A stretch of DNA of 64,000 nt, from positions 62,001 through 126,000 of the forward strand of contig NZ_PKGB01000002.1 of NCBI RefSeq assembly GCF_002848135.1. Reading direction: 5' to 3'. Origin of the DNA: Hydrogenovibrio sp. SC-1. GTDB taxonomy: Bacteria > Pseudomonadota > Gammaproteobacteria > Thiomicrospirales > Thiomicrospiraceae. This document shows, piece by piece, positions 22,560 to 46,884 of this stretch. The notes beneath the pieces were generated by a model. The model was not told where the DNA came from. It did no database searches and worked only from the letters and a program-made list of their open reading frames with translations. The stretch's first letter is position 1. Each line of letters opens with the position of its first letter. The position numbers and the translations under genes are program-made.

Positions 22560-22931
22560 ATGAATACAATTGGTCCTGCACTTGCATCCGCTTCTCAAGC
22601 GCTATTTACTCAAGCAAATGGTTTAAGTGATACGCTTTCAAAAGCGCCAAAACTGACAGAAAGCACAACAGCGGTTTCCTCTTCAGCTCAAAATACGACT
22701 GTAACATTATCTGATCAGTCAAAAATTGATGCCTCAAGCTATAATGGCTTAAAAGCTTATCAAACGGTTAATGAAAGAAACTCAGTTGAAAACCCAAGCG
22801 TTGAACGTAATGAGTCGAGCCAAACGCAGCAAGCGGAAAGAACCCAAGGTGAAACGCACCAGACAGCTCAATACGCTAACCAATTACAAATGCAAGCTAA
22901 TTACCTTAGTGCTCAAAAGGCTGAAATTTAA
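22560..22931 (+). CDS. Orphan Ser/Gln-rich small protein
   Basis: I do not recognise this 123-residue protein. It is low in hydrophobics, rich in Ser, Gln, Asn and Thr, and probably largely disordered or helical; the C-terminal part (QTAQYANQLQMQANYLSAQ) could form an amphipathic helix. No Cys, signal peptide or membrane segment is present. Expression looks real: a consensus-like promoter, a strong AGGGGGA ribosome site and a perfect palindromic terminator frame it. It is divergent from the LapA-like adhesin gene, but a functional link is only a guess. Confidence 0.7.
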   Translation: MNTIGPALASASQALFTQANGLSDTLSKAPKLTESTTAVSSSAQNTTVTLSDQSKIDASSYNGLKAYQTVNERNSVENPSVERNESSQTQQAERTQGETHQTAQYANQLQMQANYLSAQKAEI

Positions 22932-22948
22932 TCCTTCTAACGCTCACT

Positions 22949-22976
22949 AGCCTGTTAATTAATTAACAGGCTTTCA
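22949..22976 (+). terminator. Palindromic terminator after the orphan gene
   Basis: Bases 22949-22972 are a perfect 24-bp palindrome (outer arms AGCCTG/CAGGCT around an AT-rich centre), followed by TTCAT. It lies 17 bp after the stop codon. Confidence 0.65.
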
Positions 22977-23028
22977 TAGTTTCTTCATACTTAATTAACA
23001 TCCTCAACACTCTTTCAAGTCTAATCCA

Positions 23029-23057
23029 TTGAAGATTAACAGACGGACTTTTATACT
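23029..23057 (+). promoter_or_regulatory. Predicted promoter of a candidate small RNA
   Basis: TTGAAG (23029-23034) and TATACT (23052-23057) are separated by 17 bp. No start codon with a reading frame of useful length follows before the terminator at 23191, so the promoter appears to serve a noncoding transcript. Confidence 0.5.
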
Positions 23058-23063
23058 AAACTC

Positions 23064-23228
23064 AAGTTAAGTGAGATCACTTTCCTTTTTGATTTTAAGT
23101 TGTTATTCCTTCATTTTCACTTAATTCAAATTAATCAGAAAAGAATTCAAATTGGCCTCCTCAGCTCTTTGAATTCACTCCTCAAAAGATAAGCGTAATG
23201 AATTCATTTACATTACGCTTTTTTTTTA
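23064..23228 (+). ncRNA. Candidate trans-acting small RNA of about 165 nt
   Basis: A sigma-70-like promoter and a strong intrinsic terminator bracket this gene-free stretch. Within it are a small 5' hairpin (AAGTG 23069-23073 with CACTT 23078-23082), a 9-bp stem GAATTCAAA (23143-23151) with TTTGAATTC (23168-23176), and the terminator stem. The 16-nt loop of the middle hairpin contains CCTCCTC, complementary to Shine-Dalgarno sequences, as in several known mRNA-repressing sRNAs. The longest ATG frame is 11 codons inside the terminator. I do not recognise a known family, and transcription is inferred. The DNA otherwise fills the 335-bp gap between two orphan genes. Confidence 0.45.
23191..23228 (+). 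terminator. Strong intrinsic terminator
   Basis: A perfect 10-bp stem, AAGCGTAATG (23191-23200) with CATTACGCTT (23211-23220), and a 10-nt loop are followed by an unbroken run of T residues. The preceding gene already has its own terminator 220 bp upstream, so this one implies a separate short transcript. Confidence 0.85.
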
Positions 23229-23266
23229 TCTAAAATGAATGGAAATTGAATTTAGAGTTGCAATGA

Positions 23267-23716
23267 ATGGAAAATAAACGGATATATAGACATGGTCATG
23301 GCTTTGACGAGCAACACAAAAAAAACCAAGCTTTGTTCTCAAAATTAATGGAACACCATCATGAAATTTTCCGAGAGACTGAGTTACTTGAAATGGGTAT
23401 CCGCCCTAAAACGACTAGTCCAAACCCCCATATAGCTTCCATTCTACAAGAACATGTTTCTGGCATGGAAAAACGCTTTGCCATGGGACGTGCTATTCGA
23501 TCATGGGACCCTCTTTTTGCAGCTTTATTTGAATATCGTGACAATATTTTATTAGAGTACTACTCAATTCAGAACGGTGTAGAAGCAAAATTAACCACAA
23601 ATGACCCCAAAATTTTAGAGATTCTTCATTGCCACAATGAAACGATTCACGGTTTCATTCAAGAAGGTGCTAATGCGGGAAAACGACAGAGTCCAAAACC
23701 AGAGTGGCTTGAATAA
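23267..23716 (+). CDS. Protein of unknown function, His/Glu-rich helical
   Basis: I do not recognise this 149-residue protein. It is predicted soluble and helical, with no signal peptide, and has many His residues at spaced positions (HGHGFDEQH, EHHHEIF, LQEHVSGMEKRF, LHCHNETIHGF). The His/Glu pattern could suggest a metal-binding four-helix bundle, but I cannot match a specific hemerythrin motif. It is followed 69 bp later by trxC on the same strand. Confidence 0.7.
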   Translation: MENKRIYRHGHGFDEQHKKNQALFSKLMEHHHEIFRETELLEMGIRPKTTSPNPHIASILQEHVSGMEKRFAMGRAIRSWDPLFAALFEYRDNILLEYYSIQNGVEAKLTTNDPKILEILHCHNETIHGFIQEGANAGKRQSPKPEWLE

Positions 23717-45892: not shown

Positions 45893-46884
45893 ATTACCAT
45901 CAACACCTACAAGACTTCCTTCAAACGCTCCCCAGCTTAGGCCTTAGCCACTGGCAATCTGAATTGGAAGCCACTGGGAAAATTGCACTTGATCCAAGGG
46001 GCAATGGAAATCTCAGTCGTTGGCTGCCTGCTTTAAATGCATTAACCCAATACCCGAATGCCAGCGACATCCAACTCAATCAATCAGCCATTAGCGCGAA
46101 AACGCCCAACCTGTCTGAAAAAGATCAAACCGATCTCAAATCCCATTTCAAAAAATTAATGCCTTGGCGAAAAGGACCTTACAACATCAACCATGTTTAT
46201 ATCGATACCGAATGGCGTTCAGACTGGAAATGGGATCGTGTTGTACCGCATCTAAGCTCTCTCGACGGAAGAAAAGTTTTGGATATTGGTTGTGGAAGCG
46301 GCTATCACCTATGGCGAATGCTTGGCGAGGGGGCCGTAATGGCAGTCGGTGTTGATCCCAGTCTATTATTTATGACACAGTTCTTAGCCGTAAAACATTT
46401 TATCGGTACTGAAGCGCCCGCCTACTTCTTACCGCTAACACTGGAACAACTTCCCAAAACGGAGCCCACCGGTGTTTTTGACACCGTTTTTTCGATGGGC
46501 GTTTTATATCATCGCCGTTCACCGATGGATCATTTGATTGATTTAAAACGCACGCTAAAACCGGGTGGTGAATTGGTATTGGAAACCCTTGTTATTCCCG
46601 AAGACCAAGGGCAATTACTGGTGCCTAAAAACCGTTATGCGCAAATGAACAATGTCTGGTTTATTCCGTCAGTTGACGAATTAAGCCACTGGCTTGAAAA
46701 ATGTGGCTATAGAAACGTGCGCTGCGTTGATATTGATCAAACCTCAACATCAGAACAACGTTCAACCGAATGGATGGAATGGAATTCGCTTTCAGATTTC
46801 CTAGACCCTCAAGACCCCAATAAAACCATTGAAGGATACCCCGCCCCGATCCGTGCTGTACTACTGGCAAACAAACCCACCTAA
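45886..46884 (+). CDS. cmoB: tRNA U34 carboxymethyltransferase CmoB
   Basis: It transfers the carboxymethyl group from carboxy-SAM to 5-hydroxyuridine at tRNA position 34, giving cmo5U. The 332-residue protein has WRSDWKWDRVVPHLSSLDGR and the SAM-binding VLDIGCGSGYHLWRMLGEGA, both typical of CmoB. The start codon is GTG at 45886 with an AAAGG site; the nearby ATG at 45884 is out of frame. Confidence 0.95.
   Translation: MKHYHQHLQDFLQTLPSLGLSHWQSELEATGKIALDPRGNGNLSRWLPALNALTQYPNASDIQLNQSAISAKTPNLSEKDQTDLKSHFKKLMPWRKGPYNINHVYIDTEWRSDWKWDRVVPHLSSLDGRKVLDIGCGSGYHLWRMLGEGAVMAVGVDPSLLFMTQFLAVKHFIGTEAPAYFLPLTLEQLPKTEPTGVFDTVFSMGVLYHRRSPMDHLIDLKRTLKPGGELVLETLVIPEDQGQLLVPKNRYAQMNNVWFIPSVDELSHWLEKCGYRNVRCVDIDQTSTSEQRSTEWMEWNSLSDFLDPQDPNKTIEGYPAPIRAVLLANKPT

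Follow-up and report, generated by a model that had tools for sequence, protein, structure and literature searches.

The window, a 64-kb stretch of Hydrogenovibrio DNA, contains two neighbouring genes on its plus strand, one encoding a 123-aa protein (22560-22931) and the other a 149-aa protein (23267-23716). According to the ORF list and Pfam search, neither protein belongs to a Pfam family, even though the downstream one was detected in 47 of 62 genomes of the taxonomic family. No gene-sized frame crosses the gap between them (22931 to 23267), as the initial annotation had stated, and no ORF of at least 80 aa lies within it; one frame runs without a stop for about 45 codons. Downstream of the 149-aa gene comes trxC. 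These three genes form the conserved context of the element described below, and the synteny of the flanking pair extends to 10 of 12 Hydrogenovibrio genomes. The initial annotation had placed the element amid adhesin and c-di-GMP genes. Such genes do occur in the wider neighbourhood (a LapA-domain/Calx-beta protein upstream, a response regulator-GGDEF-EAL protein downstream) but they are not part of the conserved context. A palindrome at 22951-22972, taken earlier for the terminator of the upstream gene, is perfect but followed by a poor T run. Elsewhere in the window, a perfect FNR-type palindrome, TTGATATTGATCAA, is found at 46727-46740. A plasmid match was looked for and none was found. 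Contig C20 of the same genome carries two pairs of identical sites (3555/22648 and 10220/29313; L180-L183), each 19,093 bp apart, which reflects either some 19 kb duplicated in tandem or an artefact of the assembly.

Within the gap, a small RNA of about 165 nt is predicted at 23064-23228, on the plus strand like its parts and both neighbours. Its putative promoter (23029-23057) consists of -35 box TTGAAG and -10 box TATACT separated by a 17-nt spacer (9 of 12 matches), with predicted start at about 23064. This promoter was initially described as good. Its boxes are indeed there, but the score by itself is near chance: 11 promoter-like sites were counted in 2.5 kb, compared with 6.3 expected. 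The call gains weight because the promoter is conserved in relatives, the -10 position being kept as TAaACT across the order (34 aligned loci). In the same loci, a tandem box located further upstream (CCTCAACACTCTTTCAA, 23002-23018) ranks among the most conserved blocks 5' of the RNA. Its order consensus is TCTCAATACTTCTTCAA, with half-sites 10-11 bp apart, and it occupies syntenic places across the order. The box is probably an activator site, perhaps OmpR/PhoB-like in arrangement. Another promoter-like site, TTTACA-18-TAAAAT (23207-23236), possibly serving the downstream gene, is a consensus match only; it overlaps the terminator of the RNA and then follows it.

The 165-nt RNA is predicted to fold with -33.95 kcal/mol against a shuffle mean of -20.1 kcal/mol (z = -4.3), which beats 200 of 200 dinucleotide shuffles. 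The first reading of the sequence had distinguished three hairpins. Hairpin 1 (23065-23126; arms 23065-23076 and 23115-23126, long loop) has only modest support in the window species (z = -1.4) and is clearer in relatives. Hairpin 2 (23143-23176) comprises a 9-bp stem, GAATTCAAA/TTTGAATTC, and a 16-nt loop, TTGGCCTCCTCAGCTC, a form peculiar to Hydrogenovibrio. The CCTCCTC noted earlier is present in this loop at 23156-23162 and occurs only once in the 64-kb window; an inner 3-bp GGC/GCU pairing predicted by folding would reduce the loop to 7 nt, CUCCUCA. The loop copy of this seed, CTCCTCAG (23157-23164), matches CTGAGGAG of ccoP and sdhB. A second copy, overlooked in the initial annotation, is the one that turned out to be universal (see below). 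It is situated 21 nt 3' of the loop copy in the linker between hairpin 2 and the terminator, where CTCCTCA (23178-23184) is predicted to be single-stranded; in its extended form, ACTCCTCAAA (23177-23186), it is complementary without a mismatch, over 10 bp, to TTTGAGGAGT of ccoO from the same genome. Copies starting at 23157 and 23178 are the only pair of CTCCTCA less than 40 nt apart in the window. The intrinsic terminator (23191-23227), recognized from the beginning, has a 10-bp stem (23191-23200/23211-23220) and nine T at 23219-23227. A simple terminator scan missed it because its loop exceeds 8 nt.

We wondered if this organization is preserved in related bacteria. Nucleotide search of the genus matched 3 of 12 genomes, one of them the source of the query, and since it was too weak, synteny and covariance models were used instead. 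Promoter, CUCCUCA-loop hairpin and terminator are retained in 10 of 12 Hydrogenovibrio genomes, with a -10-like box, hairpin, linker and terminator in the syntenic gap. A covariance model built from hairpin 2 and linker (R1) matched the same 10 genomes, at one place each, with E from 5e-5 to 2e-14. In the alignment of these 10 sequences, 95.8% of stem cells are paired and three pairs display two-sided changes, so the stems and loop do recur in relatives, the absence of which had been named beforehand as a reason to reject the RNA. Covariation is higher than in any of 500 shuffles or any slid version; because the sequences are related and 5 of the 10 had built the model, this is strong support but not formal proof.

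R1 search of 51 other genomes of the taxonomic family returned no match, which first suggested an RNA specific to the genus. This was ruled out by inspection of syntenic gaps in other genera, where the linker rather than the hairpin is constant. In the sampling used, order and taxonomic family comprise the same 63 genomes. A second model, R2, built from linker and terminator (the 3' part of the RNA), matched 47 of these 63 genomes and all seven genera at E <= 0.001; a few of the weakest matches, located off the syntenic position, are possibly terminators matched by chance. G056 and G019 contain the element below the strict filter of R2. Over 15 sequences, the terminator stem of R2 is 100% paired, and seven of its nine pairs display two-sided changes. 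In other genera, the same layout with quite different hairpins is found 5' of the orthologue of the downstream gene: tandem box, -10 box, a hairpin on the 5' side, one or two more that vary, GCTCCTCAG and terminator. The linker CTCCTCA, unpaired in the folds predicted, is present in 43 of 43 extracted loci, extraction of which required this string; G030 is the only genome whose syntenic gap, as far as such gaps were read, has the other features without it. In G030 the RNA locus (L236) is decayed, with seed GCTTATTAG and an interrupted T tail. Many genomes have the linker copy alone. An additional copy resides in hairpin 2 of Hydrogenovibrio, G062 and G016 and in the terminator loop of G017. 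Since the seed stays constant while the hairpins drift, selection appears to act on the CUCCUCA motif rather than on any individual hairpin.

Promoter-like matches are frequent in AT-rich intergenic DNA, and it might be argued that chance hairpins lie here next to a conserved DNA or regulatory element 5' of the 149-aa gene, with no RNA gene at all. We consider this extremely improbable, as covarying stems, conserved -10 box, terminator and invariant seed occur together.

The range of the RNA was followed further in 274 genomes of Gammaproteobacteria. Only three weak extra matches (2e-6 to 9e-6) were obtained, and the RNA is thus not convincingly present elsewhere in this class. Two of them, L105 and L107, are apparently unrelated terminators. 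Locus L106 (about 1426-1541), from a genome of another gammaproteobacterial family (G193), has a promoter-like stretch, a hairpin with loop CCTCCTCC, linker CCTCCTCCACCTCCC and a terminator, and it reaches sub-threshold Rfam scores for ar14 (31.7 bits, threshold 58.8) and Betaproteobacteria_toxic_sRNA (27.6, threshold 50). It is a possible analogue of the window RNA. At a different locus, G055 and G060 share a similar CTCTCCTCAGAGC element with terminator (L094, about 3106; L095, about 3013), perhaps a sibling RNA.

Such an element could also be a cis-acting leader or attenuator of the 149-aa gene (or trxC), its terminator being read through under some condition. Conserved synteny and the downstream start, about 40-180 nt away, would suit this explanation. 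However, in three genomes (G038, G039, G045) the 149-aa gene was not found and the RNA is retained, now 5' of trxC; conversely, G053 and G061 carry the gene, but their RNA is gone and the two flanking genes abut. No alternative pairing of the antiterminator kind was found to be conserved, and the promoter-like site 3' of the terminator would provide the gene with a start of its own. A leader is therefore improbable, and the RNA is most likely an independent gene, not bound to a particular neighbour, with a promoter and intrinsic terminator recognized by sequence only.

No family was named in the initial annotation, and Rfam 15 (4227 families) agrees: the window has no match at gathering thresholds, and the locus of the RNA (L035) has none up to E = 5. 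Conserved structure and covariation, together with the absent Rfam match, support the original suggestion of a candidate small RNA, and we hold it very probable that this is a real sRNA family uncatalogued in Rfam. In open full-text literature, no paper on sRNA in Hydrogenovibrio was found, and search for small RNA with Thiomicrospira gave no title or abstract concerning such an RNA.

CcsR1-4 of Rhodobacter sphaeroides are small stress RNAs with C-rich motifs resembling anti-Shine-Dalgarno sequence, and in this respect the window RNA is similar to them. RNase E releases the four CcsRs from a transcript that includes the DUF1127 gene ccaF1 and starts at an RpoHI/RpoHII promoter (PMC10253847); here, in contrast, there is one RNA with its own putative promoter and no adjoining DUF1127 gene. 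In alphaproteobacterial alpha-r14/NfeR1 RNAs, the ultraconserved anti-Shine-Dalgarno motif CCUCCUCCC is repeated in unpaired regions of differing stems and blocks ribosome-binding sites (PMC10746234). The window RNA is likewise a hairpin RNA that keeps one anti-Shine-Dalgarno motif in unpaired positions while its stems drift. Unlike alpha-r14/NfeR1, which carry CCUCCUCCC in three hairpins, it has CUCCUCA in the linker with none or one further copy, and it comes from a different bacterial class and gene context. The corresponding Rfam entry, RF02344 (ar14), cites a source on 'cuckoo' RNAs; the window RNA does not match its model, nor does it contain three hairpins with unpaired CCUCCUCCC, having CUCCUCA in one loop and one linker. 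CyaR of Enterobacterales pairs with the ompX Shine-Dalgarno sequence by a conserved seed and has a variable 5' part (PMC11795201). Both features recall the window RNA, whose seed is predicted to pair likewise, but CyaR is controlled by CRP, its sequence and targets differ, and the Rfam CyaR model gave no match. NrrF of Neisseria meningitidis is an sRNA reported to act on the respiratory-chain genes sdhCDAB and petABC (PMC5586341). To that extent the predicted action of the window RNA on respiratory-chain genes is similar; unlike NrrF, which is Fur-controlled, it has cbb3 oxidase genes leading the predictions and no Rfam match. Taken by its sequence, the window RNA would represent a new family within a kind of regulator already known, anti-Shine-Dalgarno sRNAs, unrelated in sequence to alpha-r14/NfeR1.

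UGAGGAG, the complement of the CUCCUCA seed, is a Shine-Dalgarno sequence. It is likely that the RNA acts via this seed, and candidate targets were sought by patterns and in sampled stretches, as TGAGGAG-N2-14-ATG sites in the genome of the window and those of the genus. Reading frames of G000 (the window's genome), G001, G002 and G004 were compared, plus a few from G003, G005 and G006. Among the matches listed, the only genes led by TGAGGAG and recurring in five Hydrogenovibrio genomes are ccoO, ccoP and rplW; the site before rplW is a continuation of the reading frame of an upstream ribosomal protein and, judged from sequence, is probably coding-constrained. The strongest candidates are thus respiratory ccoO and ccoP and not the adhesion genes of the neighbourhood. 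In the order, ccoO is preceded by TTGAGGAG or CTGAGGAG (TGAGGAG) in 49 of 50 genomes, and ccoP by TTCTGAGGAG or a near form in most genomes. In other gammaproteobacterial families used as outgroup, TGAGGAG is found at ccoO in about 4 of 27 cases, and within the operon ccoN has a site of another sequence. In G000 and G008, both partners have drifted, ccoO to TTTGAGGAGT and the linker to ACTCCTCAAA, and they form a perfect 10-bp match. The single ccoO exception in the order is G030, mentioned above for its decayed RNA, which has TTCAGGAG in place of TGAGGAG; joint loss of seed and change of site is suggestive, but it is one case.

Several observations advise caution. The site of ccoN, first gene of the operon, is conserved as well, though as AAAGGGGAATCC, so conservation alone is no proof of targeting. 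FNR-type boxes lie 5' of ccoN in many loci; the tandem box of the sRNA is not shared with ccoN upstream regions, except for one poor match. TGAGGAG of ccoO persists in G053 and genus g2, where the RNA is absent, and in G054, G007 and G010, where it was not found, and this ribosome-binding site may therefore be conserved for other reasons. RNAs of G005, G021 and G056, which have the A-type linker ACTCCTCAG, are mismatched at the place changed in G000 and G008, with no matching change in ccoO. The energy advantage of own over swapped RNA-ccoO pairs is small, with a permutation fraction of 0.027 obtained on related genomes with kinship uncorrected. For several unrelated genes of the window the predicted duplexes are as good or better, and most of these involve the GC-rich loop copy.

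The site of ccoO is located in the loop of a conserved hairpin, ATGAGTT-GAGGAGCAC-AAACTCAT(G), the stem of which includes part of the start codon, and that of ccoP in a short AU-rich hairpin, TTATTCT-GAGG-AGAATAA (both L186-L235). Covariation of both is weak. These start hairpins, conserved across the order, are possibly cis-regulatory themselves.

A trans-acting anti-Shine-Dalgarno sRNA might instead serve a regulon other than ccoO and ccoP, e.g. transporters or other respiratory genes. GAGGAG-type sites are present on many genes, the best linker duplex (-19.7 kcal/mol) is formed with an anion symporter (L159), and the persistence of ccoO/ccoP complementarity without the RNA points in the same direction. 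Against this stand the recurrence of ccoO and ccoP within the genus and the rarity of the TGAGGAG site outside the order, and we consider a different regulon rather unlikely. In the window's genome, sdhB, nuoK, an NtrC-type regulator and the anion symporter appear as weaker candidates. As leading candidates, ccoO and ccoP have close to an even chance of being true targets; they are not established.

Repeated short unpaired motifs would also fit a decoy or sponge titrating another RNA or protein, with no direct action on mRNA. GGA motifs are the kind bound by CsrA, and one is found in the 5' hairpin loop of some relatives, e.g. ACAGGATGT in G003. This motif is nevertheless not conserved and is absent in the window, many genomes have just one copy in the linker, and CUCCUCA, which is not a site of CsrA type, is exactly complementary to Shine-Dalgarno sites. 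We regard a sponge as very improbable.

Our preferred reading, to which we assign a probability of roughly 0.6, is a gene for a trans-acting anti-Shine-Dalgarno sRNA of about 165 nt with ccoO and ccoP as targets. In response to an inducing signal, its own promoter, probably activator-controlled, would drive transcription of a free-standing RNA. The long U-tail of the terminator (T9) is of the type bound by Hfq and would be compatible with Hfq dependence; the tail is the one part of this visible in sequence. The working part would be the exposed CUCCUCA just 5' of the terminator, supplemented in Hydrogenovibrio by the hairpin 2 loop copy. Pairing of the seed with UGAGGAG Shine-Dalgarno sites would block ribosome entry, so the expected direction of control is repression.

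In its fullest form, which we offer only tentatively, an order-specific sRNA family would set levels of CcoO and CcoP, but not CcoN, post-transcriptionally in chemolithoautotrophic sulfur oxidisers, with target Shine-Dalgarno sites displayed in conserved mRNA hairpins. Seed copies would have been gained repeatedly and may divide the work: in this Hydrogenovibrio, ccoO is matched by the copy in the linker and ccoP by that in the loop. If true, a regulator whose seed is simple and testable would be added to carbon-fixing sulfur oxidisers, and their high-affinity terminal oxidase (cbb3) would be controlled at translation. The family would also exemplify a constant anti-Shine-Dalgarno seed moving through changing RNA scaffolds, apparently independently of the alphaproteobacterial anti-Shine-Dalgarno families.
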